A stretch of DNA of 64,000 bases from Leisingera thetidis (GTDB lineage: Bacteria; Pseudomonadota; Alphaproteobacteria; Rhodobacterales; Rhodobacteraceae). The translations under genes were made by a program, and so were the position numbers. The notes beneath the pieces are model-generated. The model was not told where the DNA came from. It did not search any database and saw only the letters and a list, made by a program, of their open reading frames with translations. Shown here piece by piece: positions 47,041 through 64,000 of the stretch (position 1 is its first letter; every line of letters starts with the position of its first letter). Where the stretch lies: contig NZ_CP109787.1 of NCBI RefSeq assembly GCF_025857195.1, positions 2,917,501 to 2,981,500 on the forward strand. The letters run 5' to 3'.

Positions 47041-47438
47041 GCCGCCTCCACCGCCTGGATCAAACGGGTCAGCACCGCCGCATCCACATGGGCATCGACC
47101 CGCAAGCTGCGACCATTGCGCAGAACCACCTCAATCAACGCCAAGCTCGCTTCAGGGGCGCACGCTTCCGGCGGTTCCGGCGGCGACGTAATATCGACGG
47201 GCAGGAATAGCGTCGCGTCGTCTGGCGTCAGAAGCCCCTTCCTCCTCAGCTCGTATCGCCAGGCATAGATCTGCTGCCGCCTGATCTCGTGGCGCTGTGC
47301 GACCTGCGACACGGTCGCGCCGTTCACCCCGACCGAAAGCACAATCGCCAACTTCTCGTCGTCACTCCAGCGGCGCCGACGCTCCAAGCCAAGAATTTCG
47401 CCCCGCACAGCTGCCTCCCTCCCTGTAGGAGACGTCAT
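47037..47438 (-). CDS. tnpA: IS66 accessory protein TnpA
   Basis: 133 residues. The helix-turn-helix (ERRRRWSDDEKLAIVLSVGV, then VSQVAQRHEIRRQQIYAWRY) precedes a C-terminal region with ALIEVVLRNGRSLRVDAHVD. It lies just inside the right end of the element and is translationally coupled to tnpB. Confidence 0.9.
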   Translation of the reverse strand: MTSPTGREAAVRGEILGLERRRRWSDDEKLAIVLSVGVNGATVSQVAQRHEIRRQQIYAWRYELRRKGLLTPDDATLFLPVDITSPPEPPEACAPEASLALIEVVLRNGRSLRVDAHVDAAVLTRLIQAVEAA

Positions 47439-49665: not shown

Positions 49666-50007
49666 AACGGCAGCCTGCCAAATTCAACAAGTGTGTCTTG
49701 CGCTTCAGCGACCTGAATGTCGGTATCATCAGAAGGGCAATATCAGCCGAAGAGTTCTTTGCGCCTTACAGCATTTTTTCGCCATTTTGATCGTGCGACC
49801 GCATTCAACAGCAGCTTTGGCAGACCGCTTTGCGGCTTTTGGTGATTGAACCTTTGTACCGCAACCAGCCTGCAGGACTTGTGTAGGTAGCAGATCGCCC
49901 TTGGCTCCCTACAGGCCAGGCTGACCGTAATGCAGCCACAGCAACTATCGGTGCCCTGGCGCGCGCCGCCCTTACACCAGCGGCAACCGACCGAAGGTCC
50001 CCAGTTA
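49666..50007. other. Divergent upstream region, no gene
   Basis: About 340 bases between the transporter gene and the first FNR-like box. I see no gene. Confidence 0.4.
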
Positions 50008-50021
50008 TTGCCTGCCGTCAA
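50008..50021 (+). promoter_or_regulatory. FNR-like box 1
   Basis: TTGCC-TGCC-GTCAA, followed by TGAAACTTCCG. Its centre is 76 bases before the ATG at 50091. The left half-site deviates from TTGAC/T at one or two positions. It shares an extended match with box 6. Confidence 0.6.
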
Positions 50022-50090
50022 TGAAACTTCCGCTGCGATCCGCCACCGTCACGGTGCGGGAAATGATCCCGCGCTGACAAGGTGAACAGA

Positions 50091-50222
50091 ATGACTGATC
50101 CAAGATCCACACCGAAAAAACCAAAGCCGGCACCTGTCAAACCGGCATCTGCTACTGGCAAACCTTCCCAGTCTACCTCCGGCAAGCAGTCCAGGTCCGT
50201 GGCAAACACTGGGAAAACGTAA
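50091..50222 (+). CDS. 43-residue Lys/Pro/Ser-rich protein
   Basis: MTDPRSTPKKPKPAPVKPAS, then ATGKPSQSTSGKQSRSVANT. It is basic, without hydrophobic segments, and probably disordered. I accept it because of AAGGTGAA before the ATG and the FNR-like box at the right distance. The function is unknown. Confidence 0.45.
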   Translation: MTDPRSTPKKPKPAPVKPASATGKPSQSTSGKQSRSVANTGKT

Positions 50223-50277
50223 CCTGCTTCTTCGGGAGACAACCATTTACAGAGCATTCCGCACCGGTCTTCCTGCC

Positions 50278-50523
50278 GTGGTGATTTTGGCGCTTGCCGG
50301 GAAGGCAATGGCGCTTACGCTCACCAACATTCGGGCTGACCCGGTCACGGTGCGGTTCATGGCAGGTGGCGATACCCATGACATTAATCTGGGTCCCGGC
50401 GAATCCTCAGAGGAAGCATGTGATAAAGGCTGCCTGCTGACGCTGGCTGACGGCACCGAGCAAACCTTTCTTCCCGAAGATCATGTCCTGATCAACAGAG
50501 ATGGTTTTGCACTCGCCGAATGA
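50278..50523 (+). CDS. Small exported protein, start uncertain
   Basis: 81 residues from a GTG at 50278: VVILALAGKAMA forms the hydrophobic part of a signal peptide, followed by a small domain (LTNIRADPVTVRFMAGGDTH, then EEACDKGCLLTLADGTEQTF). In frame, an ATT codon 12 codons upstream at 50242, behind GGGAGA, would give a complete signal peptide with basic residues. That suggests an ATT start or a mutated ATG. It is probably co-transcribed with the 43-residue gene. Confidence 0.5.
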   Translation: MVILALAGKAMALTLTNIRADPVTVRFMAGGDTHDINLGPGESSEEACDKGCLLTLADGTEQTFLPEDHVLINRDGFALAE

Positions 50524-50596
50524 TACAGCCGAATTTTCCCAAAGCAAATGACCACACGGGCGCCGCGGAACCGGCGCCCGTTTCAATGTTTGATGA

Positions 50597-53002
50597 CTAA
50601 CTTTCTGAATTTCCAGCCGCTGCGCCCTTTCTACGCTCAGCGCGTTGCAGCGCCTTGCGCAGCGCCTCTCCGGCAGTTTCGAGCCAGATAAAATCAAGAT
50701 GCTTGCGGGTACTCTCGGGAATGTCCTCCAGATCGCGCCGGTTGCGGGCAGGCAGCATCACCCGGGTGATCCCCGCCGCAGCGGCAGCCAGCACTTTTTC
50801 CTTGATTCCGCCCACAGGCAGAACGACCCCTCGTAACGAAATCTCTCCGGTCATCGCAGTATCGCTGCGCACAGTTCGGTCCAAAAACAAGGAAACCAGC
50901 GCGGTGTAAATCGCCACCCCGGCGCTAGGGCCGTCCTTGGGCGTGGCCCCGGCGGGCACGTGGACGTGAATGTCAAGGCTGTCAAAGCTATTGGCTTCCA
51001 GCCCCAGGCTCCCGGCCTGCGCCTTCAAAAGCGACAGTGCGGTCTGGGCACTCTCCCGCATCACCGCCCCCAACTGGCCGGTGAGGATCAGCCGCCCCTT
51101 GCCCGGTGCGCGGCTAGCCTCGATAAACAGGATGTCGCCGCCGGCAGGTGTCCAGGCCAGCCCAGTGGCAACCCCCGGCGTGCTGGTGCGAGGCGCGGTC
51201 TCATTTTCAAACAGCGGCGCCCCCAGTGCGGCCTCCACCTGCTCCGCCCCAAGCTTGCTTTTGGCCGGCTTGCCTTCAGCATAGCGGACTGCGGCAGCCC
51301 GCAGGACGGCCCCGATCTGGCGCTCCAGCTGCCGCACCCCGGCTTCCCTGGTGTAGCTGCGGATCATCAGACGCAGCGCCGGCGGTGTGAACCGGAGACG
51401 CTCATACATTAGTCCGTTGGCCCTCAGCTGACGCGGCACCAGATAGCGCTTGGCGATCTCCAGCTTTTCTTCCTCGGTGTAGCCCGGCAGGCTGATTACC
51501 TCCATCCGGTCCAGGAGCGGCCGCGGAATGCCCTCCAGCATATTGGCAGTGGTCAGGAACACCACCCGCGACAGGTCAAAATCCACTCCGAGGTAATTGT
51601 CGCGGAAGGTGCTGTTCTGCTCCGGGTCCAGCACCTCCAGAAGCGCTGCAGAGGGATCGCCCTGGATGCCGTGGCCCAGCTTGTCGATTTCATCCAGCAT
51701 CAGTACGCAGTCGCGGCTGCGCGCCCGCCGCACGGCCTGAACAATGCTGCCCGGCAGCGCCCCGATATAGGTTCTCCGGTGGCCGCGGATCTCCGCCGCG
51801 TCATGCACACCGCCCAGACTGACCCGGCCAAAGGCCCGCCCCAGGGCACGCGCAATCGATTGGCCCAGGGAGGTCTTGCCAACCCCTGGCGGCCCGGCAA
51901 AGCACAGGATCGGCGCCCGGCTCTCAGGTGACAACTTGCGCACAGCCAGGAACTCAATGATCCGCGCTTTGACTTTTTCCAATCCGTAGTGGTCGGCGTT
52001 CAGAATGCCCCGCGCCTGAATCAGGCTGACCGGCTGGCTGCTTGGCACCTGCCAGGGCAATTCCACCATCCAGTCGAGCCAGTTTCTCAGAACCGCCCCC
52101 TCCCCCGCAGCGTCAGACAGGCGCGCGTAGCGGGCCAGTTCCTTGCGGGCCATTGCCTCGGCTTCCGGCGGCATTCCCGCCCGGGTGATCGCCTCGCCCA
52201 GTTGAGCAATCTCCTCCGCATTGCCGCCATCCTCGCCCAGCTCATGCTGAATTGCCGCCAGCTGCTCGCGCAGGATTGCCTCGCGGTGGCGCTCATCAAA
52301 GGCGGCACGTGTCTGTTCGCTGATCTCACGGGTGATGCGCAGCACTTCCAGCCGCCTTGCCAGGATCTTCGACACCTTGTCCAGCCGGGCAGCAATATCG
52401 ACGGTTTCAAGGATCTCTTGCCGCTCCTCAATTGGGATGTCGGTATAAGCCGCTGCCAGATCCGCCAGCGCGCCCGGCTCGGTGGCTGCATGTGCTGCCT
52501 CTTCCAAGCCAGCAGGGCTCTGCGGCAACAGCGACAGCAGCTCTGCCGCTTGACTTCTGAGATGCAAAAACCGGGCCTCGACCTGAGGCTGATGGCTGGT
52601 CACGTCCGGCAGGCTCAGCACCCGGCCAACCGGAAACGGCGGCCCCTTCAGCAATTCGATCAGTCTGAACCGGGTCACCCCCTGGCAGATTATATGATGC
52701 CCGCCGTCGGGCGAGGTCATCAGCCGAAGGATATTCGCAGTGCAGCCAATGCGGAACAGGTCCTCTGCCCCCGGATCGCTGACCGCCGGGTTGCGCTGAA
52801 GCAGCAGCCCTACAGGCCGCGACTGGCGGATCGCCTGCTGGATTGCCGCAATGGATTTGGCCCGCCCGGTAGAGACCGGGAAGACTGTTCCGGGAAAGGC
52901 GACCACCTCGCGCACCGGCAGCAGAATCAACCCGTCTTCCGGCAGCGGAACGTTCTGCATTTCCTGCAGCGGGGCCATTTCTGAAGCGCTGGCCTGATTC
53001 AT
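50597..53002 (-). CDS. lon: Lon-family ATP-dependent protease
   Basis: 801 residues, full length. The N-terminal substrate domain (ILLPVREVVAFPGTVFPVST) is followed by the AAA+ module (Walker A GPPGVGKTS, Walker B MLDEIDKLG) and the C-terminal peptidase with the Ser-Lys dyad: Ser693 in DGPSAGVAIYT and Lys736 in GGIKEKV. The ATG at 53002 overlaps the Hsp20 stop (ATGA), so chaperone and protease are made together. Downstream of FNR-like box 2 through the SPW-Hsp20 genes. The SVS-type core differs enough that this is probably a second, accessory Lon. Confidence 0.92.
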   Translation of the reverse strand: MNQASASEMAPLQEMQNVPLPEDGLILLPVREVVAFPGTVFPVSTGRAKSIAAIQQAIRQSRPVGLLLQRNPAVSDPGAEDLFRIGCTANILRLMTSPDGGHHIICQGVTRFRLIELLKGPPFPVGRVLSLPDVTSHQPQVEARFLHLRSQAAELLSLLPQSPAGLEEAAHAATEPGALADLAAAYTDIPIEERQEILETVDIAARLDKVSKILARRLEVLRITREISEQTRAAFDERHREAILREQLAAIQHELGEDGGNAEEIAQLGEAITRAGMPPEAEAMARKELARYARLSDAAGEGAVLRNWLDWMVELPWQVPSSQPVSLIQARGILNADHYGLEKVKARIIEFLAVRKLSPESRAPILCFAGPPGVGKTSLGQSIARALGRAFGRVSLGGVHDAAEIRGHRRTYIGALPGSIVQAVRRARSRDCVLMLDEIDKLGHGIQGDPSAALLEVLDPEQNSTFRDNYLGVDFDLSRVVFLTTANMLEGIPRPLLDRMEVISLPGYTEEEKLEIAKRYLVPRQLRANGLMYERLRFTPPALRLMIRSYTREAGVRQLERQIGAVLRAAAVRYAEGKPAKSKLGAEQVEAALGAPLFENETAPRTSTPGVATGLAWTPAGGDILFIEASRAPGKGRLILTGQLGAVMRESAQTALSLLKAQAGSLGLEANSFDSLDIHVHVPAGATPKDGPSAGVAIYTALVSLFLDRTVRSDTAMTGEISLRGVVLPVGGIKEKVLAAAAAGITRVMLPARNRRDLEDIPESTRKHLDFIWLETAGEALRKALQRAERRKGAAAGNSES

Positions 53003-53418
53003 GCCGTCTCTCCCTGTCCGCTCTTGGACAGCCGGATCAGCAGATGCCCCCGCACCGTCTGCCGCTTGACGGCATAGGTGCCCGGCGGGATCGGAATACG
53101 CCGCTCGAACCGGCCAAAGGGCAGCTCCAGCCGGATCACAGTGGCATGGCACAGCTCCGGCGGCGGTTCCCGCTGCCCCCGGATGATCAGTTCGTCATTT
53201 CTAATGCGCACCTCAACGTCATCGGCCTTGGCGCCTGGCAGCACCACATAAACAAGCAGCTCGCCGTTGGTTTCCAAGAGATCCACCGGCGGTTCCCAGC
53301 AAGGCTGCCCGTCTTGCAGGGAAGTGAGCAGAAACAGCTGGCGGCAGAACTTCTCTGTCGCCGCAAGCTGCGCAATCGCGTCGGAAAGCATCATGTTCTC
53401 GGGAGGCTGCTGGTCCAT
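52999..53418 (-). CDS. Hsp20/alpha-crystallin-type small heat-shock protein
   Basis: 139 residues. The alpha-crystallin domain is at about residues 45-135: PPVDLLETNGELLVYVVLPG, then VEVRIRNDELIIRGQREPP and LELPFGRFERRIPIPPGTY. The C-terminal I-x-I tail motif is not evident. The start lies 82 bases after the SPW-type gene, and the stop overlaps lon. Confidence 0.88.
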   Translation of the reverse strand: MDQQPPENMMLSDAIAQLAATEKFCRQLFLLTSLQDGQPCWEPPVDLLETNGELLVYVVLPGAKADDVEVRIRNDELIIRGQREPPPELCHATVIRLELPFGRFERRIPIPPGTYAVKRQTVRGHLLIRLSKSGQGETA

Positions 53419-53500
53419 GCTGCACCAGAAATTGTTCCTAGTATTCCTTGCCCGGAGTTTCTGCCGCAGGCCTCAGAGCATCCGCCTGCCAGGCTCTGGG

Positions 53501-53857
53501 TCAGGTTTTCCTCCGCCAGGGGCCCTGCGCGATGCACCAAGCGACCAGCACCATGATAGACCCGCCGCTTAGAGCCGCGGTCCATGCCACCGGCTCATTG
53601 TCAGTAAATCCAAGGGGCCTGGGTGAGAGGTCCCGCCAAAGACCAATTGCCGCGCAGCCCCATTCCTCCCAGTTGTTGCTGGTGTACTGGGCAGCCGCCG
53701 ACAGGACTGCGGCTGCCGATCCGGCTGCGATGAAGCTCCAACTGGCCGGGATGGCCAAGCCACCGTCGGTCGGTCCTGAATAATGAAGCCACGACGTGAC
53801 GGCGAGCCAGCAACCCAGGGCGGTGATGACCCAATTCTGCCAATGCTTGCGTCTCAA
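53501..53857 (-). CDS. SPW-repeat membrane protein
   Basis: 118 residues with two W-x-x-W-x6-G-x-W units (HWQNWVITALGCWLAVTSWL, then NWEEWGCAAIGLWRDLSPRP) and four hydrophobic helices. I start it at the TTG at 53857, preceded by GAAAGGA; the frame is open further upstream without a site. A second SPW-type protein of the same length is at 62043-62399. It is the first gene of the SPW-Hsp20-Lon transcript, behind box 2. Confidence 0.65.
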   Translation of the reverse strand: MRRKHWQNWVITALGCWLAVTSWLHYSGPTDGGLAIPASWSFIAAGSAAAVLSAAAQYTSNNWEEWGCAAIGLWRDLSPRPLGFTDNEPVAWTAALSGGSIMVLVAWCIAQGPWRRKT

Positions 53858-53927
53858 CGGCGCGTCCTTTCCCGAAATGGCAACGAACTGCCTTACCGCC
53901 AGTCTGCCGCACTGGCACAGGATTGCA

Positions 53928-53941
53928 TTGACGGCAATCAA
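53928..53941 (-). promoter_or_regulatory. FNR-like box 2
   Basis: Read on the minus strand: TTGAT-TGCC-GTCAA followed by TGC, with its centre 77 bases before the SPW start codon. Both half-sites fit the FNR/FixK consensus. Confidence 0.75.
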
Positions 53942-53959
53942 CGCCCCGGGCCGCAGGCT

Positions 53960-54331
53960 CTAGGCTGCCTGACTGCCGGCCGGTTGTTCTATCACCTTCT
54001 CACCACGGTGCCCTGTTGGCGCAGGCTGAAACCGCGGAGTTTCTGGCAATCCCTGCCAGTATCGGGCCATTCGCCCGGCTTCTTCGTGGTAATCATCCAT
54101 CATCTTCTGGACATGGCGCCACTGCACCAATTGGATCTCGTCAAGACTGATGCAGCCCAGTATGCAGTGCTGCGTTTTAACGTATTCGTCGAGGCGGGCC
54201 ATTGTGAATTTGCAGGCCTCCCCCCAGACTTCTGCACAGACCTGCATTGCCTGCGCTACTGGCAAAAGGACTGCGCGATCCGCAGCCTCGGGCGGTCGCT
54301 CCTTCTGAATTTGCTGACTGGACACCTTCAT
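53960..54331 (-). CDS. Phasin-like helical protein
   Basis: 123 residues, almost all helix: LPVAQAMQVCAEVWGEACKF, then TMARLDEYVKTQHCILGCIS and LVQWRHVQKMMDDYHEEAGR. This resembles phasin-like proteins of PHA granules found near stress genes, but the match is by pattern only. The ATG at 54331 follows GGAGGGGG. It is controlled by box 3. Confidence 0.55.
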   Translation of the reverse strand: MKVSSQQIQKERPPEAADRAVLLPVAQAMQVCAEVWGEACKFTMARLDEYVKTQHCILGCISLDEIQLVQWRHVQKMMDDYHEEAGRMARYWQGLPETPRFQPAPTGHRGEKVIEQPAGSQAA

Positions 54332-54403
54332 GACCCCCTCCGGGATTTTGCTCCGCAACAGTTTTAACAAGGCCACCCAAACCACACCCCTGCCGACGGG
54401 GCA

Positions 54404-54417
54404 TTGACAGCGGTCAT
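54404..54417 (-). promoter_or_regulatory. FNR-like box 3
   Basis: Read on the minus strand: ATGAC-CGCT-GTCAA followed by TGC, with its centre 79 bases before the phasin-like start. It has one mismatch in the first base of the left half-site. Confidence 0.7.
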
Positions 54418-54469
54418 AGGACGACCGGTTCCTGCCCTGCCCGATCGGAACCGGGCGGGTTCTGGCTGA

Positions 54470-55306
54470 TTAGGCACCGCTAATGGAAGCTTCGCCGGTG
54501 GCAGTAAGCGAGTGCTTCACCAAAGCAGAGTTATTCGACAGCGGCCCGATCGGTTCTGCCTTTCCCTCCCCTGCACCACGCTCGCCCTTGGCGATCCGCT
54601 GCAACACACCCATATTGCTTACCGCCGCCTGTTTAGGCGTCAGCATGACAATGGCCTGGTGTTGCTCCAGCTGGCTTAGCCCTCGGCACAGGGTCTCCAC
54701 CGTCATATCCAGTAATGAGGCCAGGTCGCGGCGCCGCAGGTCGAAAACCACAACGGCACCTTCGCTACAGTTGCTCAGACCAGCGCCTGCCCCCCCTGCC
54801 TCGAGCAACAGCCAGCTGGCAATCCTGCACAACGTGCCGCCGCTACGCAGCAAAACCGCCCAGTCCCACTGTGCATTCAGCTGGCGGGCGGCGGAGGCAA
54901 GCAACGCCCGGCTCAGCTTGGGTTCCTTCTGCAACAGTGCCTCCAGCGCAGGCAGCGCTATCCAGCAAATTTTGACATCGCTCGCGGCATCCCAGGCAAC
55001 GCCCGGCCGCTCCGGAAACGCCGGGCCAGCCCATTCACCCGGTTGCAGCAGCTGCAGCACATGCGCCGCGCCGGCTTCCGTGATGTTTACGATTTTCACC
55101 GTGCCTTCCACGATGATGCCGCCGTACCCAGCCTCTTCGCCCTGCGGCACAATCGTTTCTCCCGCCCGGAATCCGGCCAGATGAGCCCGACTTGAAAATG
55201 AAGCAGAGGCCTGTTCTCCCGCTGCTGCGCAAATACCCACGTGGTTGACCGGGCACCCCCGGCATCGCCCTACAGAAGCAGTGGCTGTCAATGTCCCGTA
55301 ATGCAT
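54470..55306 (-). CDS. FNR-type Fe-S oxygen-sensing regulator
   Basis: 278 residues. The N-terminal C-x2-C-x7-C (Cys15, Cys18, Cys26 in CRGCPVNHVGIC) and Cys114 (DVKICWIA) fit the four ligands of an FNR [4Fe-4S] cluster. A sensor domain (FRAGETIVPQGEEAGYGGII) and a winged helix (RRRDLASLLDMTVETLCRGL) follow. The recognition helix keeps Glu and Arg of FNR (VETxxR) but has Cys where E. coli FNR has Ser212. The ATG at 55306 follows GGAGAG. It lies in the middle of eight FNR-like boxes and is the obvious candidate to bind them. Confidence 0.85.
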   Translation of the reverse strand: MHYGTLTATASVGRCRGCPVNHVGICAAAGEQASASFSSRAHLAGFRAGETIVPQGEEAGYGGIIVEGTVKIVNITEAGAAHVLQLLQPGEWAGPAFPERPGVAWDAASDVKICWIALPALEALLQKEPKLSRALLASAARQLNAQWDWAVLLRSGGTLCRIASWLLLEAGGAGAGLSNCSEGAVVVFDLRRRDLASLLDMTVETLCRGLSQLEQHQAIVMLTPKQAAVSNMGVLQRIAKGERGAGEGKAEPIGPLSNNSALVKHSLTATGEASISGA

Positions 55307-55936
55307 TCCGGCTCTCCCCCCAGACAGGATGAACCAAGCAGGCACGGCGCGACTCAGCGGCGCAGCGCTGCCAGCGGAGTGCCAGTCTGCGCCTGCCAGC
55401 CGTTTTGAGGAATAGACTGTTTTGTAAAGAATTGTGCGCAAAGCGCTCCCAAAGCTGCGAAACTTTCAGTCCAAAATTTTATCGTGATACGCGGCTGGCA
55501 GCAGACTTCCCCCCGAACAGTCTTCTCTCCTCTCGGCCTGCCGCGGACCACTGCTGTACAAAGGAATCTTCAGACGGCACAGACCCCGATTTTCCGTTCT
55601 TCAGCCTGTGCCGTTTCCGGCTTGAAACGCGTCACAAAGAAAAATTCTTTTGCTGAACACAAGCCTCCTGGTCCTCAGCTACCCGACCAGCCTCATGCCC
55701 CAAACAACTACTACCTTACCGTCCCCACCTAGCGACACCTGTTCTGCCAGCTGAAAACCGCGTACTGTTAAACACGCCTATTCTCCTCTGCCCAATTGAT
55801 CCTTCAGCCGGGTGTCCTGGCAGGAATTCCCGGCTGAAGGAGGTTCCGCGGCAGCTGGAAAGCTCCGGCTGCATTTAGCCGTCATGGGGACAAGCTGCGT
55901 ACCACGCATATGTCGCAGATTCCCGGCTGTACGGCA
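55307..55936. other. Long non-coding divergent region with a strong hairpin
   Basis: 630 bases between the FNR gene and the box upstream of cbpA. It is AT-richer near 55420-55790. It contains CCTTCAGCCGGG (55801-55812) and CCCGGCTGAAGG (55829-55840), a perfect 12-bp inverted repeat with a 16-base loop. This could be the end of an unannotated small RNA or a regulatory site. No protein gene is supported. Confidence 0.5.
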
Positions 55937-55950
55937 TTGATGGCGGTCAA
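55937..55950 (+). promoter_or_regulatory. FNR-like box 4
   Basis: TTGAT-GGCG-GTCAA, with its centre 67 bases before the cbpA start codon. Confidence 0.75.
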
Positions 55951-56010
55951 TCGCCCCCCGGCCCCGCTGTGGCACAGTTGCGGAAAGACCGGAACAGCGG
56001 AGGCGCTGGT

Positions 56011-56943
56011 ATGGAGTTCAAGGATTATTACCAGGCGTTGGAATTGGAAAGGGACGCCGTCAGCAAAGAGATCAAGCGATCTTACCGCAGGCTGGCGCGC
56101 CAGTTTCATCCCGACATCAACGCCTCTCCCGAAGCCGAGACGCGGTTCCGGGAGATTACCGAAGCATACGAGGTGCTGAAGGACCCTGAAAGGCGCGCCG
56201 CCTATGACCGGCTCTGGAACCAGCAGCAACAATCCTCCGGCAAGGCTTTCACACCGCCGCCTGGCTGGCGGCAGGGCTTCAGCTTTACCAGCGGCGGCGC
56301 TGAAGGGGGCGAAGTCTTCAGCGACTTCTTCGAAACCCTGTTCCGGCGGCCCTCGCCCTTTACCAAGACACAGCACGAACGCAGCACCAGACAGCACGCC
56401 CGCATCCGGATCGATATCCAGGACGCCTACACTGGCGGCAGCCGGGTCCTGACGCTGCAAACACCTGTCGCAGCCGCAGATGGGACCGTGCAGCTGCAGT
56501 CCCGCGAAATCCCGGTCTACATCCCCAAGGGGATTGTGGAGGGCCAGCACATCCGCCTGCCCGGCCAAAGTCCGCCGTCTCCCGGCGGCGGTCCGCCCGG
56601 CGACCTGCTGCTGGAGGTGGTCTTTGCACCCCATCCGGTTTACCGGGCCGACGGCAGGGACCTGTATCTCGATCTGCCGGTGGCGCCTTGGGAGGCGGCG
56701 CTCGGCGGCAAAATCCGGATGCCAGCGCCAGTTGGCAGCCTCGCGGTGAAAGTGCCGCCCAACGCCCGCAATGGCCAGATGCTGCGCCTTAGGGGCAAAG
56801 GGCTGCCAGGGTCGCCCTCCGGCGACATCTACGCCACCCTCAGGATAGTCAATCCCAAGGTCACGACCGATGCCGCGCGCAGACTGTTTGAACAAATGGC
56901 CCGGGAAATCCCGTTCAACCCGCGTGCCAGCATTGGGGGATAA
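56011..56943 (+). CDS. cbpA: CbpA-type DnaJ co-chaperone
   Basis: 310 residues. A J domain at residues 1-68 with the HPD motif (RRLARQFHPDINASPEAETR) precedes a Gly/Phe-containing linker and the two C-terminal substrate-binding beta domains (ARIRIDIQDAYTGGSRVLTL, then LAVKVPPNARNGQMLRLRGK and GLPGSPSGDIYATLRI). There is no zinc finger, hence CbpA rather than DnaJ. I start it at MEFKDYYQ (GGAG upstream). It partners DnaK, and the next gene encodes its modulator. Confidence 0.9.
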   Translation: MEFKDYYQALELERDAVSKEIKRSYRRLARQFHPDINASPEAETRFREITEAYEVLKDPERRAAYDRLWNQQQQSSGKAFTPPPGWRQGFSFTSGGAEGGEVFSDFFETLFRRPSPFTKTQHERSTRQHARIRIDIQDAYTGGSRVLTLQTPVAAADGTVQLQSREIPVYIPKGIVEGQHIRLPGQSPPSPGGGPPGDLLLEVVFAPHPVYRADGRDLYLDLPVAPWEAALGGKIRMPAPVGSLAVKVPPNARNGQMLRLRGKGLPGSPSGDIYATLRIVNPKVTTDAARRLFEQMAREIPFNPRASIGG

Positions 56944-56947
56944 GCAC

Positions 56948-57247
56948 ATGAAAGCCACCGCATCGGGCAGCCAGGTTCTCGACAGTCTTAACCTGGAGGA
57001 ATTATGCCGTTTCTGCCGCACCGAAGAAAACTGGGTCGTGGAACTGGTGCAGCAGGGCGTACTGGATCCCGAAGGCACTGGAGCGGCGAGCTGGCGCTTT
57101 CGCGGCCTGTCCATCATCCGCGCCAAGAAGGCGCGGCGGCTCAGCCGCGATCTGGGTATAAATACCGCCGGCGTGGCGCTGGTGCTGGACCTTCTCGAAC
57201 AGCGGGAACATCTCCTGCGGCGGCTCGGCCGGTACGAAAAGTTCTGA
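56948..57247 (+). CDS. cbpM: CbpM-like chaperone modulator (MerR-type fold)
   Basis: 99 residues: LNLEELCRFCRTEENWVVEL, then VQQGVLDPEG and LGINTAGVALVLDLLEQREH. The layout is that of CbpM, a small helical protein that binds and inhibits the CbpA J domain. It starts 4 bases after the cbpA stop, behind GGGGGA. Confidence 0.8.
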   Translation: MKATASGSQVLDSLNLEELCRFCRTEENWVVELVQQGVLDPEGTGAASWRFRGLSIIRAKKARRLSRDLGINTAGVALVLDLLEQREHLLRRLGRYEKF

Positions 57248-57265
57248 CCGGCGGCAAGCAGGCTG

Positions 57266-57279
57266 TTGTCGGCGGTCAA
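57266..57279 (+). promoter_or_regulatory. FNR-like box 5
   Basis: TTGTC-GGCG-GTCAA followed by TGC, with its centre 60 bases before the CBS-protein start. Confidence 0.68.
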
Positions 57280-57332
57280 TGCCGTTTCGGCCTAGAAGGT
57301 TATCCTCCCAACGTTCAGCACAGGAGGCAGCC

Positions 57333-57731
57333 ATGATAGTCAGACAGGCCATGTCGCGCGCAGCTGCGGCCGCTGGGGCCAATACCCCTATCCGCAATAT
57401 CGCGCGTATCATGCAGCAGCAGAACGCGGGCGCAGTTGTCATCGGCAGCAGGGACTGCCTGCTTGGCATTCTTACTGACCGGGACATCGTGATCCGGGTA
57501 CTGGCAGCTGGCGGGGACCCCGCCACGGTGACCGCCGGCGAGGTTATGACCCGCAACCCGGTCTATTGCAGCGCCGATGAACCTTTGGATGATGCGGTCT
57601 TCCTGATGGAGATCGGGCGGTTCCGGCACATGCCGGTGCTGGACGGAAAGGGGCGGCTTTGCGGCATGCTCAGCCTCGGCGGCCAGCCACAGCAGGCGGC
57701 GCAGGACCAAGGGAGTGAAACCGCTGCATGA
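57333..57731 (+). CDS. CBS-domain protein
   Basis: 132 residues made of two CBS motifs: ARIMQQQNAGAVVIGSRDCL with ILTDRDIVIRVLA, then VMTRNPVYCSADEPLDDAVF and RFRHMPVLDGKGRLCGMLSL. Such pairs bind adenine nucleotides, and stand-alone forms are frequent in FNR/FixK-controlled stress sets. AGGAGG precedes the ATG. Confidence 0.85.
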   Translation: MIVRQAMSRAAAAAGANTPIRNIARIMQQQNAGAVVIGSRDCLLGILTDRDIVIRVLAAGGDPATVTAGEVMTRNPVYCSADEPLDDAVFLMEIGRFRHMPVLDGKGRLCGMLSLGGQPQQAAQDQGSETAA

Positions 57732-57751
57732 GCTGGCTAGTGGCGCAGGTG

Positions 57752-58438
57752 TCATACCAGGAACGGCATCAGCGCGCTGGCAAGGCTGAGGACCAGGAAA
57801 AACCCGGCCATGTCCGTGATCGTGGTCAACAGCGGCCCGCTGGCGGCTGCAGGGTCCTGATCGGCACGTTTCAGTAACAAGGGGACGATACCGCCGATTG
57901 ACACATAGGGGTGCTGACCTCGATACCGTTCGAAATCCTCGGTATCCGAAACAAACCGCAGCAAGACTTCGCCGACCCGGTCAGATTCCTGAAACGTGAA
58001 GGCCTCCGCAGCCATAAAACCGCCGGCGACGTGGCTATCGTAACTTGAAAGACGCCTGACGTCAGCTGCATCAGCCGGCGTCAAACGAGCCAGAATAGCC
58101 TCCGCATCATCAAGACCGCCGATCACATCGGCCTTGATGTTCGACCCCAGCTAATCAATGATCCCGGCCGCGGTCCCGGATTCCAACCCCACCACCAAGC
58201 TGGCAGCCAGCTCGTTCGGGGCTGCTTCTACGATTTCCGCAGCCCGTGCCGCAGGAAGCAGCGACAGCGCAAGGCTCCGGTCCTCTGGCGGAAGGTTGGT
58301 CGGCTCTCGCAGCGCTTCACTTAGTGCAAGCGGCTCTAGCACGTCTGCCAACGCCGTACCGTCCGGCTCTGCCCGCGCCCGGCTAAGCCGCTCTTCGGCC
58401 TCGTCCACGTTACCGGGATCTGTCCTGGTATCGGCCAT
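57752..58438 (-). pseudogene. MgtE magnesium channel, stop codon and central deletion
   Basis: It starts with an MgtE_N-like domain (LALSLLPAARAAEIVEAAPN, then VVGLESGTAAGIID) and reaches an in-frame TAG at 58151-58153. The same frame continues with the end of that domain and the first CBS part (LTPADAADVRRLSSYDSHVA, GGFMAAEAFTF). It then jumps to the last membrane helices (KRADQDPAAASGPLLTTITD, MAGFFLVLSLASALM). Family members have about 450 residues; here only about 228 codons remain. It is 116 bases downstream of groEL. Confidence 0.75.
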
Positions 58439-58554
58439 GCTTTTCTCACTCTGTCTGTGCGGCAGCGGAACCAACCCATCGAAAGACGGTGCCGCCCTGC
58501 TGCAACTTCACCGCAAGGCTTCAGCCCGCAGTACCGGCAAGCCGCTAGGCCGCG

Positions 58555-60186
58555 TTAGAAATCCTTACCGTCCAAGCCGCCAGGGTAACCAGAGTGTGCA
58601 GCCGCCTTGGAGTGATCCACCACCACCGCCTCGGTGGTCATCATCAGACCGGCAATCGACACAGCGTTCTGCAAGGCAATCCGCACCACCTTGGCTGGAT
58701 CCACAATCCCCGACTCAAACATGTCGGCCAAGCAATCGTTTTGCGCATCATAGCCCCAGGCGGTGTCGTTCTTCTCCAGAAGCTTGCCGACGATCAACGC
58801 TTCATCCTTGCCCGCATTCCGGACAATCCGGCGTACCGGTTCTGCCGCCGCCTTGCGGATGATGGCGATGCCCGCCCGCATATCGCCGTTTGCGGCCTCC
58901 AACCCATCCAGCGCCAGCGCAGCATAGAGCAGCGCTGCGCCGCCACCCGGCACGATCCCTTCCTCTGTTGCCGCGCGGGTGGCATGCAGCGCATCCTCGA
59001 TCCGGTCCTTGCGCTCCTTCACCTCGGCTTCGCTGGCCCCACCAACCTCGACAATCGCCACACCGCCGCTCAGCTTCGCCAGCCGCTCCTCCAGCTTTTC
59101 ACGATCATAGTCAGACTGTGTCTCTTCGATCTGCTGCCGGATCGCGTTGCAGCGCGCCTCGATCTCCGGTTTTGCACCGCCGCCGCCGACCAGCGTGGTG
59201 TCGTCCTTGGTGATTATCACCCGCACCGACTGCCCCAGCATGTCCAGCGTGACATTCTCCAGTTTCATGCCCAGATCGGCCGAAATGACCGTGGCACCGG
59301 TCAGCACAGCAATGTCCTGCAGAATCTCCTTGCGCCGATCGCCGAAACCAGGCGCCTTCACCGCGGCGCATTGCAGGCTGCCGCGCAGCTTGTTGACAAC
59401 CAGTGCCGCCAGGGCCTCCCCGTCCACATCCTCGGCAATCACCAGCACAGGCTTGCCGTGCTTGATCACCGCTTCCAGCACCGGAATGAATGGCGCAAGG
59501 TTCGAGATTTTCTTGTCAAACAGAAGGATGAATGGAGTTTCCAGCTCCACGCTGAGGATTTCCGCGCTGGTGATGAAGTAGGGCGAAAGGTAACCGCGAT
59601 CAAATTGCATGCCCTCCACCGTTTCCAGCCGTGTCTCGCGCGACTGGGACTCCTCGATGGTGATCACCCCAGTCCGCCCCACCCGCTCCATCGCCTCGGT
59701 CAGGATCTGTCCGGCTTCGCTGTCGCCATTGGAAGCGATGGTCGCAACTTGAGTGATTTGCGCGCTGGTATTCACTGGTCGCGAAAAGCCCGCCAGTGCT
59801 TCCACCATCGCAGCAGCGCCGCGGTCAATCCCGCGTTTCACGTCCATCGGGTTCATCCCCGCTGCAACCGCCTTGCAGCCCTCGCGCAGGATGCAGCGAG
59901 CCAGGACCGTGGCGGTGGTTGTGCCGTCGCCTGCCAGCTTGGCGGTACGCTCGGCCACCTCGCGGATCAGGCGGATTCCGATGTTTTCAACCGGGTCCGG
60001 CAGCTCAATCGCCTTGGCCACGGACACCCCGTCCTTGGTGGAGCGCGGCGCTCCAAAACTTTTTTCGATCAGCACATTGCGGCCGCGAGGACCCAGCGTC
60101 GCGTTCACCGCGTCAGCAAGAACATTGACACCGCCCAACATCCGGTGCCGGGCGTTCTCGGAAAAAATGATGTCTTTCGCACCCAT
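58555..60186 (-). CDS. groEL: Chaperonin GroEL (accessory copy)
   Basis: 543 residues with the ATP-binding signatures [23 protein letters not shown] and [12 protein letters not shown], and [13 protein letters not shown] near the C-terminus. The C-terminal tail lacks the usual GGM repeats and ends [13 protein letters not shown]. There is no groES beside it, so it must share one from elsewhere or work differently. I see no FNR-like box in its upstream region. Confidence 0.93.
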
Positions 60187-60318
60187 GGGACTGATCCGGC
60201 CAAAAGTTGTCTCGTACCGCGAAAATGTGCCATGCGCCTGAACTGTAAAAGCGCTTCAGTGATGATTTTTTCTCGCCTGTGTTATCGAGAATTCAAATAC
60301 ATCATATTTTCCAGTGTT

Positions 60319-61203
60319 CTACACGCCATCCGCAGGCCCATTCCGCACCCTGGTTCCGCCACCGAGGGCATACTGCCGCAAAAACTGCGCCGCCTGCCCC
60401 GCATACTCGCCGCGCTGGCCTGCACTAGTCACGGCATAGGTGGAATAGCCAAATCGCGGCGCCCCTTCTATCCGGCGCAGCCAGCCCGCCCTCAGATCCG
60501 CCGCAACCAGCCGTTTAGGAAAGTAGGCAGAGGCCGGCACGTTCCTCAGGTGTTGCAAGGCCAGCGTACCAATGTCCAGCTGCAGCCCCGGCGTGCGAAT
60601 GTCCGGCAAGACCAGCAGGTGATCGGCGCGAAATTCCGGCCCCCAGTCGACCAGCACATATTCAGTGCCGAACGGATCCGCGCTGCTATCCGGGTTGCTG
60701 CTGACCAGCACAAATTCATCCTCGAACAGCTGCTCCACCGCCAGCCCCGCCGCCGCTTGCGGCCGGTATGCGACCATCAGATCCAGTCCGCCTTGGCCGA
60801 ACAATTGGACCAGAGTGTCAGACGCCATGGCTGAGGCCCGCACTGCCAATCCCGGAAGCGCCCGCCGCAGACCCGGCAAGGCCCCGGTCAGGAACCCGTC
60901 CCACAGACTGGAGGGCGCACCGACCGCCAGCACCGCCTCCATCCCGGCAGGCAGCGCCGCATCCAGTTTGGCCTGCATCCAAGTTCGCGCCAATGTCTGC
61001 GCATGGCGCTGGAAATGCCGTCCAACCTCTGTCAGCGTTGCCCCAGTCTTGCTGCGGTCAAACAGGCTCCGCCCCAGCTGCTGTTCCAACGCCCGGATGC
61101 GCAGGCTGACGGTCGACTGAGCCACATGCACCCGCTTCGCGGCCTCCAGAAAGCTGCCGGTTTCGGCCACTGCCAGAAAGGTCCGTGCCAGCTCGATATC
61201 CAT
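60319..61203 (-). CDS. LysR-family regulator
   Basis: 294 residues. The N-terminal helix-turn-helix (FLAVAETGSFLEAAKRVHVA, then QSTVSLRIRALEQQLGRSLF) precedes the substrate-binding domain (LGTLALQHLRNVPASAYFP in its second half). It is divergent from the BON-domain gene, with 160 bases and box 6 between them. The target is unknown; it may regulate groEL or the BON gene. Confidence 0.85.
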   Translation of the reverse strand: MDIELARTFLAVAETGSFLEAAKRVHVAQSTVSLRIRALEQQLGRSLFDRSKTGATLTEVGRHFQRHAQTLARTWMQAKLDAALPAGMEAVLAVGAPSSLWDGFLTGALPGLRRALPGLAVRASAMASDTLVQLFGQGGLDLMVAYRPQAAAGLAVEQLFEDEFVLVSSNPDSSADPFGTEYVLVDWGPEFRADHLLVLPDIRTPGLQLDIGTLALQHLRNVPASAYFPKRLVAADLRAGWLRRIEGAPRFGYSTYAVTSAGQRGEYAGQAAQFLRQYALGGGTRVRNGPADGV

Positions 61204-61275
61204 GGCTCATCTCCAATGCCGGGCGGCACAGTCTAGCAGAAGCCATCCGTGTCCCGAAGCGCAGATACGCCACTC

Positions 61276-61289
61276 TTGCCCGCCGTCAA
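61276..61289 (+). promoter_or_regulatory. FNR-like box 6
   Basis: TTGCC-CGCC-GTCAA followed by TGAAACTTCCG, with its centre about 82 bases before the BON-protein start. It is identical to box 1 over 24 of 25 bases including the downstream extension. Confidence 0.62.
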
Positions 61290-61363
61290 TGAAACTTCCG
61301 GCATTTGGTTCAAACTGGTGCCACCGCGGCGAAAGGCGCTGCGGCGCGTTCGGGAAGCCAACT

Positions 61364-62014
61364 ATGAAAGACACCACACTCCGACGGGAAATCATCGAGG
61401 AACTGGACCTCGTCCCCAGCATCGACGCGGCCTCAATCGGCGTCTCGGTGGAGGATGGGATCGCGACCCTCACCGGCCATGTTCCAACCGGCGCACAGAA
61501 ACAGGCAATCGGCAAGACCGTCAAACGCGTCAGCGGCGTACGCGCTGTTGTGATGGAGATCGAAGTGCGCTCCATTGGCGAGCATCTGGACGCAGACGAT
61601 AAGATCGCCAAGCGCGCGGTAGAAGCGCTGCGCTGGAGCGACTCGGTCCCCAGGGACGCAATAAAGGTTGAGGTCGAGCACGGCGTTTTGACCCTCACCG
61701 GCCAAGCCGGTCGGAGCTATGAGAAAGCCGCCGCCGAACGGGCCGTGGAGAAGGTTTCGGGGGTAAAGCAAGTCATCAACCAGATCGGGATCACCTCTGC
61801 AGTCAGCCACACAAACGTTCGAATGCGCATTGAAACCGCCCTGCGGCGCGACGCCGCCAGGGAGGCCAAGGGGATTCTGATCAAAGTCGACGACCGCGCG
61901 GTCACATTGACCGGGCGGGTCCGCACCGAGGCTGAACGGGATGCTGCCCGCCGCGCCGCCTGGGCAGTGCCGGGCGTCAGCAGCGTGGTCGATGGTCTCA
62001 ACGTGGAACCGTGA
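61364..62014 (+). CDS. Protein with three BON domains
   Basis: 216 residues: three BON repeats at about 1-70, 75-145 and 150-216 (SIGVSVEDGIATLTGHVPTG, VEVEHGVLTLTGQAGRSYEK, IKVDDRAVTLTGRVRTEAER). BON domains bind membranes or lipids; OsmY-like proteins are stress-induced. No signal peptide is visible, so it may be cytoplasmic. It is controlled by box 6. Confidence 0.87.
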   Translation: MKDTTLRREIIEELDLVPSIDAASIGVSVEDGIATLTGHVPTGAQKQAIGKTVKRVSGVRAVVMEIEVRSIGEHLDADDKIAKRAVEALRWSDSVPRDAIKVEVEHGVLTLTGQAGRSYEKAAAERAVEKVSGVKQVINQIGITSAVSHTNVRMRIETALRRDAAREAKGILIKVDDRAVTLTGRVRTEAERDAARRAAWAVPGVSSVVDGLNVEP

Positions 62015-62042
62015 TCCCCCCGTTTCAGAAATGGTCCTGCCA

Positions 62043-62399
62043 ATGAACCGTGCCCATTGGCAGGACTGCGTGAGTTTCACCGCCGGTCTCCGGCTCCTGC
62101 TGGCGCCGCTTGCTTTCCGTATTGACTGGCCCGCCGGCCTTTACCTTACGCATATCGCCATGAACTCCTTCGCATCCGGTCTGACGGCATCGGCACTAGC
62201 TTTGCTGGAAATGCGTGTCTTCCTCAGATGTCTGGAACTGGCCATCTTGCTGCTTGGGCTTTGGATAACCTGTGCGCCCTGGATGCTTGGGTTTCACCAG
62301 ATCCCCTTCGCACGGGCCCAGTCTCTGATCTGTGGAACTGCGCTGGCGCTGATGGGAGGCCTATCGCTGCTGCACAACACTTGGAACAACATGCCCTGA
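62043..62399 (+). CDS. SPW-repeat-like membrane protein
   Basis: 118 residues, four hydrophobic segments and the paired motifs HWQDCVSFTAGLRLLLAPLA and LELAILLLGLWITCAPWMLG. It has the same length and layout as 53501-53857 but diverged sequence. It follows the BON gene by 28 bases and is probably co-transcribed. The start is probably the ATG at 62043; 62031 is possible. Confidence 0.65.
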   Translation: MNRAHWQDCVSFTAGLRLLLAPLAFRIDWPAGLYLTHIAMNSFASGLTASALALLEMRVFLRCLELAILLLGLWITCAPWMLGFHQIPFARAQSLICGTALALMGGLSLLHNTWNNMP

Positions 62400-62464
62400 C
62401 CCTTGCCGCCAGCGGGCAGCGGGCAGCGGGCAGCGGGACGCAGAAGACAACAGCCGCCTCCGCC

Positions 62465-62478
62465 TTGACAGCTGTCAA
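62465..62478 (+). promoter_or_regulatory. FNR-like box 7 (perfect palindrome)
   Basis: TTGAC-AGCT-GTCAA followed by TGC, perfectly symmetrical. Its centre is 65 bases before an ATG at 62536 and 242 bases before the GTG at 62713. Confidence 0.78.
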
Positions 62479-62712
62479 TGCACGCTTCGCAATGCCGTTC
62501 AAGATATCATTGGAGCCGCAACCAGCGAGGATGCCATGCCCGCACCAGACACGATACGTAAAGCAGCTTGCCAAATCCAGGAACCGCTTCAGAAACCTAC
62601 AGCAACCTGTTCCACACTGGTTTTCATGCCGACTCCCCGCATCGGACCAGAGAGTTTGCAGCATGGCACGACAGCCCCGGCACCGCTGAATGCACAGGTT
62701 CCGGAGCACCTC

Positions 62713-63162
62713 GTGAACCCGGACCGCCTCTGGTATGTCATCATCAATTCTCACCGTGCGCGGATCCTGCAGGGGCTGCCTAAACCCCATAGCCCCGCCG
62801 GACTGGAGATCGTGCTGCAGGCTCCGGAACAGCACGTCCGCGACATCATCGCCGGCAAACCTGGGCGCGCCTTTGCCTCCACCGGCAGCGGACGCCCTCC
62901 GGCCACGCAACCGCACCAGTCGCCGCAACGGGCCGACCAGTGCGAATTCCTGCGCGAAGTATCCGAATTCCTGAACGCAGTGCAACGTGATCAGAAATTT
63001 GACAAGCTCGTGCTGTTTGCGTCGCCGAACATTCTGGGCGTCTGGCGCGACGAGGTACCGGACAGTCTGCAGGCGAAAGTGACACGGGAATTTGCAAAGA
63101 ACCTGGTCCGCCTGCCCTACCATTCGCTGGCTAACGCAATCCGCGAGACACTCTCCTCCTGA
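62713..63162 (+). CDS. Host-attachment-family protein
   Basis: 149 residues: RLWYVIINSHRARILQGLPK, then FLREVSEFLNAVQRDQKFDK and LVLFASPNILGVWRDEVPDS, typical of the family named after a protein needed for attachment to host cells, which resembles ribosome-rescue and release-factor-like folds. I prefer the GTG at 62713 (CGGAG 8 bases upstream), which matches family length. An in-frame ATG at 62536 would add 59 unusual residues but sits at the right distance from box 7. Confidence 0.75.
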   Translation: MNPDRLWYVIINSHRARILQGLPKPHSPAGLEIVLQAPEQHVRDIIAGKPGRAFASTGSGRPPATQPHQSPQRADQCEFLREVSEFLNAVQRDQKFDKLVLFASPNILGVWRDEVPDSLQAKVTREFAKNLVRLPYHSLANAIRETLSS

Positions 63163-63187
63163 AACACTGCACCTCTCTTCACGGCCG

Positions 63188-63201
63188 TTGACGGCTGTCA
63201 A
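63188..63201 (+). promoter_or_regulatory. FNR-like box 8 (perfect palindrome, orphan)
   Basis: TTGAC-GGCT-GTCAA followed by TGC. It lies between the ends of two convergent genes with no downstream gene on the plus strand. Confidence 0.7.
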
Positions 63202-63314
63202 TGCACTTTGCAGAGCAAGCTGCCAGACTGCTGCGGCCGCCGCCCACTGCACGGGCCGCGCGGCACAGCGAATGCCCTTGCAACCCCGTTCCTAGCGATG
63301 CCACGGGCATTCCG

Positions 63315-63347
63315 GCAGGCCGGATCCGCCCCGGCTGTCCGGCCTGC
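63315..63347. terminator. Strong hairpin between box 8 and the histidine kinase gene end
   Basis: GCAGGCCGGA and TCCGGCCTGC form a 10-bp perfect stem with a 13-base loop, 3 bases from the kinase stop. It could terminate the kinase transcript (minus) and any RNA started near box 8 (plus). Confidence 0.55.
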
Positions 63348-63350
63348 GTC

Positions 63351-64000
63351 TTACCTCTCCGCCTTTCCTGCTGCCAACAGGGCTCGTCGGACCGCCCGCG
63401 CCAGCACCTGCAGCGAATAGGGCTTGGCGATCAGTTCGGCCCGCACCATCAGCCGCCGCCGCCGTGGCAACATCCGGGAGGCATAGCCCGAGGTTAGCAG
63501 AACCCCGACACCCGGGAATCTGCGGCGCAGCAGCAACGCCAAGCCATGGCCTGAAAGTCTGCCCGGCATCACAACATCGGAAAACACCAAGTCTACCGGT
63601 TCCCCCTGCTCCAGAAAAGCTAGGGCTGTCTCGCCGTCGGCGGCCTCCAGCACGGCATAGCCTAACACTTCCAGCCGCTGCAGGACCGCTTCCCGCACCA
63701 GCGGGTCGTTTTCTACGACCAGGATCAACTGACCGTCGCCAAAGGGCAGATCCGCATCCTTCCCGTCGTCCGGATCCTGCGCGACCTCAAGGGTGCGCGG
63801 CAGGTATAGACTGACCGTGGTCCCCTCCCCAGGTATGCTGTCCAGCACCAGGAAACCGCCCGCCCGGGCCACTGTCATTCCGACGCTCGTCAGCCCCAGG
63901 CCGCTGCCTGCACCGGCGGGTTTAGTGGTAAAAAACGGCTCCATCGCCTGCGTGGCAACTTCGGACGGCATTCCGCTGCCGGTGTCAGCGACGGAGATAC
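63351..64000 (-). CDS. Hybrid sensor histidine kinase/response regulator, 5' part outside window
   Basis: The last 216 codons are visible. The end of the ATPase domain has the G1 box DTGSGMP and the G2 box GSGLGLTSV. A C-terminal receiver domain follows (LILVVENDPLVREAVLQRLE, phospho-acceptor Asp in LVFSDVVMPG, Thr in GVLLTSGYA, Lys in ELIAKPYS). The layout is that of PAS-containing hybrid kinases; the sensor part is not in the window. It closes the stress island. Confidence 0.88.
   Translation of the reverse strand, partial: ISVADTGSGMPSEVATQAMEPFFTTKPAGAGSGLGLTSVGMTVARAGGFLVLDSIPGEGTTVSLYLPRTLEVAQDPDDGKDADLPFGDGQLILVVENDPLVREAVLQRLEVLGYAVLEAADGETALAFLEQGEPVDLVFSDVVMPGRLSGHGLALLLRRRFPGVGVLLTSGYASRMLPRRRRLMVRAELIAKPYSLQVLARAVRRALLAAGKAER

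Follow-up and report, generated by a model that had tools for sequence, protein, structure and literature searches.

The stretch analysed here, called the window, comprises 64,000 nucleotides of contig NZ_CP109787.1 (positions 2,917,501 to 2,981,500; assembly GCF_025857195.1) from Leisingera thetidis, whose genome is denoted G000 below. Towards its right end lies an island of stress-related genes that encode Hsp20, Lon, a CbpA-CbpM pair, GroEL, proteins with SPW, BON, CBS and host-attachment domains and an FNR-type regulator (Table 1). Eight FNR-like palindromic boxes, with starts at 50008, 53928, 54404, 55937, 57266, 61276, 62465 and 63188, are interspersed with these genes, each at the place where an earlier note, made by a model from the sequence alone, had located eight palindromes in 13 kb.

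Table 1. Boxes, genes and candidate RNA of the island in window coordinates; distances (bp) run from box centre to start codon.
Feature	Position	Strand	Distance	Remarks
Box TTGCCTGCCGTCAA-TG	50008..50021	+	76.5	before small basic protein; -10 CACCGT ~50044-50049
Small basic protein, 43 aa	50091..50222	+		no Pfam family
Lon protease	50597..53002	-		
Hsp20	52999..53418	-		
SPW-repeat protein 1 (SPW1)	53501..53857	-		TTG start
Box TTGATTGCCGTCAA-TG	53928..53941	-	77.5	serves SPW1-Hsp20-Lon, a presumed operon; -10 CAGACT ~53901-53906
Small protein	53960..54331	-		labelled phasin-like in the earlier note
Box ATGACCGCTGTCAA-TG	54404..54417	-	79.5	before phasin-like gene; no YANNNT at -10 offset
FNR-type regulator, 278 aa	54470..55306	-		domain and family searches, alignment
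Box TTGATGGCGGTCAA-TC	55937..55950	+	67.5	before CbpA-CbpM; -10 CACAGT ~55973-55978
CbpA-type DnaJ co-chaperone	56011..56943	+		DnaJ and DnaJ_C Pfam domains; below CbpA equivalog cut-off
CbpM-type modulator	56948..57247	+		MerR_2; below CbpM equivalog cut-off
Box TTGTCGGCGGTCAA-TG	57266..57279	+	60.5	for CBS protein; -10 TATCCT 57301-57306
CBS-pair protein	57333..57731	+		
GroEL	58555..60186	-		no box within one mismatch before gene
Box TTGCCCGCCGTCAA-TG	61276..61289	+	81.5	for BON-SPW2; -10 CAAACT ~61311-61316
Triple-BON protein	61364..62014	+		
SPW-repeat protein 2 (SPW2)	62043..62399	+		
Box TTGACAGCTGTCAA-TG	62465..62478	+	64.5	for host-attachment protein; -10 CAAGAT 62500-62505
Host_attach / baeRF12 domain protein	62536..63162	+		start uncertain
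Orphan box TTGACGGCTGTCAA-TG	63188..63201	+		-10 CAGACT ~63224-63229
Candidate small RNA	63236..63352	+		117 nt, three hairpins, last terminator-like

Sequence of the boxes and their concentration in the island

The form TTGAC-N4-GTCAA, given in the earlier note, describes the boxes as a family and not as an exact motif: two of the eight (62465 and 63188) match it exactly and the remaining six have one mismatch each. The series continues past the window end with five more boxes at one mismatch or fewer (window-equivalents 64994, 66957, 67038, 67546 and 68569), which brings the total to 13 boxes over 18.6 kb (C1:2967508-2986084). All 13 lie outside genes, as had been said of the eight. This is the result of a heuristic gene caller, which overlooked three small genes (small basic, SPW1 and phasin-like) and placed the host-attachment start further downstream; by the genes' own coordinates, the boxes are also outside the three missed genes and the longer host-attachment frame. 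The distances of 60-82 bp (about 65 in one case) first reported were recomputed as 60.5-81.5 bp for the seven genes within the window to which a box is assigned. Beyond the window they are 80.5 bp for SPW3, 85.5 bp for EF1 and 84.5 bp for EF2; for a response regulator the box centre is 125.5 bp from the called start and 86.5 bp from an in-frame upstream ATG.

When the 13 boxes are oriented, the gene-side GTCAA is invariant and is followed by T in 12 and then by G in 12, while the distal half is variable (TTGAC, TTGCC, TTGTC, TTGAT, ATGAC). The GTCAATG said to face all seven assigned genes is found at six of them; the CbpA box has GTCAATC on its gene side and, with ATCAATG on the reverse strand, may be bidirectional. 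The box at 61276 is located between the divergent genes for BON and LysR, with its centre 81.5 bp from BON on the right and 79.5 bp from LysR on the left; GTCAATG and the -10 element point to BON, and the LysR side has no -10. G at position 7 and C at position 8 each occur in 12 of the 13 boxes, and both together, forming a GC centre, in 11. TTGMC-NGCN-GTCAATG is the better consensus.

The boxes are far more frequent than expected by chance. With up to two mismatches, TTGACNGCNGTCAA occurs 12 times in the window, against 2.8 in shuffles (maximum 7). A scan of the 5.47 Mb genome with TTGACNGCNGTCAATG at up to one mismatch, which the earlier note had proposed as a check, returned 19 rows that correspond to 14 sites, of which 13 are those of the island and the other, at C1:2955367 (window 37867), falls inside a CRP-type coding region; the reversed pattern gave one row. 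At this stringency the motif is all but confined to the island. When two mismatches were allowed, 37 of 61 rows were outside the island, about twice the 17 rows of the control, so that a few distant sites are possible. De novo ranking of 5-mer palindromes in each island was dominated by GC-rich words and placed the TTGAC-N4 palindrome 5th in its own island and 30th to 933rd elsewhere; on account of this swamping, the analysis turned to shuffles and further islands.

The description of the boxes as FNR/FixK-type applies to their half-site, which is related to that of the canonical TTGAT-N4-ATCAA target, but the fifth base and the centre differ from that target, and the GC centre and promoter-side TG are unlike the genome's other sites. 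A GC centre is present in 11 of 13 island boxes versus none of the 16 other exact TTGAY-N4-RTCAA sites of the genome (Fisher p = 2.3e-6). This argues against the possibility that the boxes are read by the genome-wide FnrL, with the island FNR sharing the sites or having another role, a possibility that we consider improbable. In its favour, FnrL sites overlap the boxes in sequence, being TTGAY-N4-RTCAA among the R. sphaeroides chromatin immunoprecipitation (ChIP) sites (PMC2908626, in the part available), and in D. shibae FnrL activates usp genes (PMC5398030, likewise in part). Further evidence on FnrL is given with the distribution of the family. Elsewhere in the genome (G000:C1:624569-633668), a stretch of about 9 kb holds a further SPW gene (626862) together with a TTGACCCGGGTCAA site and a CRP/FNR paralogue.

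Position of the boxes in the putative promoters

Of 29 boxes oriented by rule, 16 have the hexamer YANNNT, as expected of a -10 element, centred 31-32 bp from the middle of the box (shuffle mean 1.05, maximum 6 in 3000), with a best offset of 31.0. This test covered all 32 boxes of G000, G296, G262 and G144, from which three orientation ties were dropped. A first test, with orientation set by hand, had given 17 of 27 (shuffle mean 0.93, maximum 6 in 5000; in 600 shuffles a count of 17 was not reached at any of the offsets), leaving out the G000 box at 66957 and four G296 boxes, two of them in coding sequence and two near the FNR gene without GTCAATG. At eight loci that had not been used for finding the offset (G550a-c, G507, G458, G539, G452 and G239; 3 ties of 24 dropped), the hexamer is at the offset in 10 of 21 boxes, compared to a mean over offsets of 0.59, and the best offset is again 31.0.

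If the hexamer occupies -12 to -7, the box centre must be at -40.5 or -41.5. The class II position near -41.5 that the earlier note considered allowed by the spacing is thus borne out by a -10 element at the matching offset, and the predicted promoters combine the features of the class: a site at about -41.5, a -10 and a weak -35. The conserved TG would then coincide with bases 2 and 3 of the -35 hexamer, and this would account for its presence on the gene side only. Comparison of G000 with its counterparts in G295 and G306 shows 94-96% identity in the -10 region and 74-83% in the upstream flank, the spacer and the downstream part. The proximal half is 98% and the TG 95-100% identical; these box identities are high partly by construction, the G295 and G306 counterparts having been found as boxes, and the -10 figure is free of this effect. 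One of the analyses of the boxes left out G309 and the G295 and G306 counterparts of the 66957 box. That box (L002:2957-2970), 81 bp upstream of the EF1 box and kept in G295 and G306, reads TTGACGCCCGTCAATG in a direction that points away from EF1 and perhaps marks a divergent promoter.

A box that abuts the -35 position could also serve repression, in which the island FNR would cover the -35 region and free the genes under oxygen or another signal. Sites of repressors are more variable in position. The uniform -40.5/-41.5 spacing, the poor -35 (ATGM for TTGACA) and the retained -10 form the pattern of an activator, and we regard repression as very improbable.

The regulator and the distribution of its family

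The regulator encoded in the middle of the island has the complete cysteine set attributed to it, with C15-x2-C18-x7-C26 and a central C114. Both PF00027 (cNMP-binding-like) and PF13545 (Crp-type helix-turn-helix) score above cut-off, and in an alignment with the solved FNR 8qto C15, C18 and C114 fall on cysteines, the third cysteine being offset by two. The best NCBIfam match is FnrL (NF045989), at a score of 91.7 bits that is far below the equivalog cut-off of 300; the FixK equivalog (NF050806) scores 52.6 bits, also below a cut-off of 300. The recognition helix, TVETLCR, has E204-T-L-C207-R208 where E-x2-S-R was looked for. For E. coli FNR, a part in specific binding is ascribed to Glu209, Ser212 and Arg213 (Dufour et al., PMC2908626), and the targets of the FNR, FixK and DNR groups are virtually one and the same, according to the available part of the same source. 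A cysteine at the place of Ser212 is therefore a departure. The label FNR/FixK-type is apt for the domains and cysteines, and misses that the protein belongs to a distinct subfamily.

A profile search, which scored only the 7998 candidates sharing most words, yielded 43 proteins at E <= 1e-30, including one fragment of the island protein; addition of P0014 makes 43 other proteins. Among the 43 family proteins, 40 have ETLCR and the other three E-[ST]-x-S-R, compared to ETVSR in the FnrL of Leisingera. The central Cys-Trp is found in 40 and the N-terminal C-x2-C-x7/8-C in 37; of the six without the latter, four are proteins whose start falls inside the motif or beyond it, whereas P0011 and P0045 lack it. 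Named members come from Leisingera, Roseovarius, Pseudorhodobacter, Histidinibacterium, Maritimibacter and a Rhodobacterales strain. In a tree the family forms one group apart from FnrL (ultrafast bootstrap, UFBoot, 94 and SH-aLRT 97, narrowly short of the program's star mark; the bootstrap had not converged). By sequence, then, the island FNR belongs to a separate Rhodobacteraceae subfamily and is not FnrL. A match in G276 was dropped as a family member, being FnrL (ETVSR). In the orthologue of strain ANG59 (L029:3102-3938), an in-frame TAG stands some 26 codons from the end, past the DNA-binding domain. Open-licence literature, judged from titles and abstracts, yielded no description of a Leisingera or Rhodobacteraceae FNR subfamily or of an FNR-run stress island, none of an FNR subfamily that serves a single proteostasis island through a box of its own, and no match for 'TTGAC-N4-GTCAA' with 'crp'.

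Of 21 Leisingera genomes, four (G000 among them) have an orthologue of more than 80% identity and a fifth has a 37% relative; in wider, overlapping samples the family was found in 4 of 394 Rhodobacteraceae (1e-40) and in 8 of 390 genomes across the order (1e-45). Gene order is largely kept in G295, G306 and the available part of G309, except for DegP, which is on the Lon side in G295 and G306. In G296 a 37% identical FNR is accompanied by Hsp20, Lon (65%), SPW, DUF3775, CBS, Host_attach, a response regulator, BON, a universal stress protein (USP) and GroEL. When the four closest Leisingera genomes are set aside, 11 family loci remain, and 8 of them have a relative of the island's response regulator (48-63% identical) within about 10 kb either side.

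Boxes accompany the family at many of these loci. Within about 9.5 kb of the FNR gene (less at contig ends), the number of boxes and the shuffle mean are 8 and 0.25 in G000, 6 and 0.39 in G295, 7 and 0.25 in G306, 4 and 0.33 in G309, 10 and 0.49 in G296, 4 and 0.29 in G262, 4 and 0.12 in G144, 12 and 0.26 at G550a, and 4 and 0.24 in G507, amounting to clear enrichment at 9 of 15 family loci and none or marginal enrichment at 6. The comparison of related genomes suggested in the earlier note thus shows boxes, FNR and genes recurring together in G295, G306 and G296, and most clearly in G550. There, TTGAC-N4-GTCAATG at up to one mismatch gives 31 rows, of which 18 are in C6:64225-81992 and the rest on other contigs (six on C11); all seven exact rows (six sites) are inside this C6 island. 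All but one of the 12 G550a boxes are intergenic by the gene calls, and boxes are located 60-87 bp before USP, EF-hand, SPW, CBS, DUF2267 and cytochrome c-like genes. In G507, BON and DUF2267 have boxes 61-65 bp before them, and the distance is 102-113 bp for Hsp20 and a glycine-zipper-like protein. In G507, G458, G539, G452 and G239 further matches are scattered genome-wide. A second contig of strain JC1 (L126, G306:C97:40806-41003) carries three island-type boxes beside copies of BON and SPW2, apparently a partial duplication.

The distribution bears on FnrL as well. An FnrL-like protein, 27-28% identical to the island FNR, is present in each of the four Leisingera genomes with a close orthologue, as expected if FnrL were the reader. 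However, the box clusters track the family FNR and not FnrL: pattern rows number 0-3 per genome in the 15 Leisingera that lack the family and 12-22 in the five that have it (G310 did not enter this comparison), yet genomes without the family may lack the target genes. Of 30 SPW loci, two have a box at up to one mismatch in the 400 bp upstream, namely G144, which has a family FNR, and G272. Among the 29 besides G144, 27 have no box in that interval, G272 has one and another has a weak FNR-like match, which also speaks against FnrL, although at least seven of the 30 are poor comparators, falling within frames of more than 600 aa. The G272 island (L124, G272:C489) has SPW, BON, USP and Host_attach genes and a different CRP/FNR pair, with ESISR and ESLSR helices.

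The island as a candidate regulon

The clustering of the boxes, their common sequence, the -10 geometry and the co-conservation and linkage of boxes, genes and regulator suggest that the island is a self-contained regulon, in which the embedded FNR, at low oxygen or under redox change, would activate stress genes from class II sites. We consider this probable; DNA binding, activation, an Fe-S cluster, an oxygen signal and a role in survival are presumed parts of it. Most likely, the regulator would form an Fe-S-dependent dimer that binds TTGMC-NGCN-GTCAATG boxes centred near -41.5. The gene-side end of the box would enter the imperfect -35 (A-TG-M, from the box's last base), 16-17 bp from the -10 hexamer, and the dimer, as a class II activator, would recruit sigma70 polymerase. 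Predicted targets are the SPW, Hsp20-Lon, CbpA-CbpM, CBS, BON, host-attachment, USP, EF-hand and response-regulator genes, and perhaps the candidate small RNA described below. The proteostasis island around its own FNR that the earlier note proposed is in keeping with the island-confined cluster and its co-conservation. Its content, Hsp20, Lon and CbpA-CbpM agreeing with the 'chaperones and proteases' of that note, is broader than those terms, since the targets also include SPW, USP, CBS, BON, EF-hand, host-attachment and response-regulator genes.

Several observations weigh against such a regulon. No box at up to one mismatch stands before GroEL or DegP of the island, or is placed to serve the FNR gene itself, and YANNNT is absent at the offset from 13 of the 29 boxes oriented by rule. 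The BON box in G295 and G306 is TTGCCCGCCATCAATG, with two core mismatches; the small-basic promoter has a counterpart in G306 and no match in G295. Box numbers are marginal in G239 (2, shuffle mean 0.32) and at G550c (2, 0.17), and at shuffle level at G550b (1, 0.56), G458 (1, 0.38), G539 (1, 0.40) and G452 (1, 0.22). In G272 similar boxes are found beside a C-x2-C-x7-C regulator with an ESISR helix, so that box type and Cys207 are not strictly coupled. Two FnrL control regions hold three one-mismatch core boxes each (expected 0.09 and 0.12); the bare core is therefore not specific, and FnrL may cross-read the sites, but none of the five oriented matches in these regions has a -10.

The signal could be nitric oxide (NO), peroxide or another redox cue and not oxygen itself, which we think rather unlikely. 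Fe-S FNR proteins react with NO too, and the stress-gene content is compatible with several signals. On the other hand, the C-x2-C-x7-C layout is the same as in the FnrL of the same genome. The cluster of D. shibae FnrL is oxygen-labile (PMC5398030, in the part available).

The proposed regulon has counterparts among known systems. Like FnrL of Rhodobacteraceae, the island FNR has the CRP/FNR fold, C-x2-C-x7-C and related TTGAY-N4-RTCAA sites; it differs in its 28% identity, ETLCR in place of ETVSR, the GC-centred extended box and the confinement of targets to one island. In Rhizobium, an FNR-type box (TTGA-N6-TCAA, centred -87.5 from the start codon) drives Hsp20 through FnrN in microaerobiosis, but this concerns one small heat-shock protein gene and a general microaerobic regulator, and the accessible part of the source mentions no regulator dedicated to a stress island (PMC11784457). 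The lxa locus of Burkholderia cenocepacia (BCAM0275-0323) is likewise large, contiguous and linked to low-oxygen persistence, and lists BCAM0276 as a universal stress protein; organism and gene content are different, and an embedded FNR with its own box is not mentioned in the available parts (PMC6127331, PMC3759415). The site of the class II fnr1 promoter of H. seropedicae, centred at -42, overlaps the -35 region (PMC5934665, in part); the island differs in that one such architecture, extended on the TG side, recurs throughout a single locus. Hsp20 and CBS proteins are included in predicted alphaproteobacterial regulon tables (PMC2908626, as far as available).

The mechanism is ordinary, and the dedication and specificity are unusual. 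An FNR-type sensor would be linked directly to protein quality control and stress genes and not to respiration, exclusively so as far as the box search shows. Two FNR-type regulators with distinguishable boxes in one cell make specificity, the Ser-to-Cys change and insulation testable, and the poorly understood SPW, BON, Host_attach, DUF2267 and EF-hand proteins, which share a promoter type across genera, become open to comparative study. More tentatively, and with some doubt, an undescribed FNR subfamily with altered helix and box may run a transferable, insulated module for low-oxygen proteostasis and dormancy, in which regulator, promoters, chaperones, proteases and a small RNA would move as one and stay apart from the host FnrL network. 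On plasmids, no FNR match was found at 1e-20 in a search that possibly omitted records near G000. A CbpA-CbpM pair is located immediately downstream of repABC on an L. aquaemixtae plasmid (L141, NZ_CP081050.1), and similar DnaJ matches occur on ten other Leisingera plasmids of 60-153 kb.

The orphan box at 63188 is between two gene ends and has no downstream gene on the same strand. The stretch that begins at 63236 has a minimum free energy of -59.1 kcal/mol (z -2.9; 1 of 200 shuffles as stable), and the sequence downstream of the box is conserved in G295 and G306. The box may drive a small RNA of the regulon. The plain alternative is that 63236-63352 is a terminator between two convergent genes; the last hairpin is terminator-like but lacks a long U run. 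Rfam gave no match at gathering scores in 49500-64000.

The name 'phasin-like' has no support in Pfam or NCBIfam, neither of which gave a match at E <= 0.01. A groES neighbour of GroEL was not noticed, and no search for groES was made. Between FNR and CbpA (window 55306-56010), JC1 and ANG59 (L029, L058/L059) are about 300 bp longer; the extra sequence contains an apparent Hsp20-like frame, read from the alignment, that is missing from G000 and G295, and a remnant of its 3' end seems to persist. Window 57752-58438 presumably holds a broken mgtE-like gene in two frames. To the left of the island, three minus-strand open reading frames at 45002-47438 resemble what we take to be an IS66-type element.

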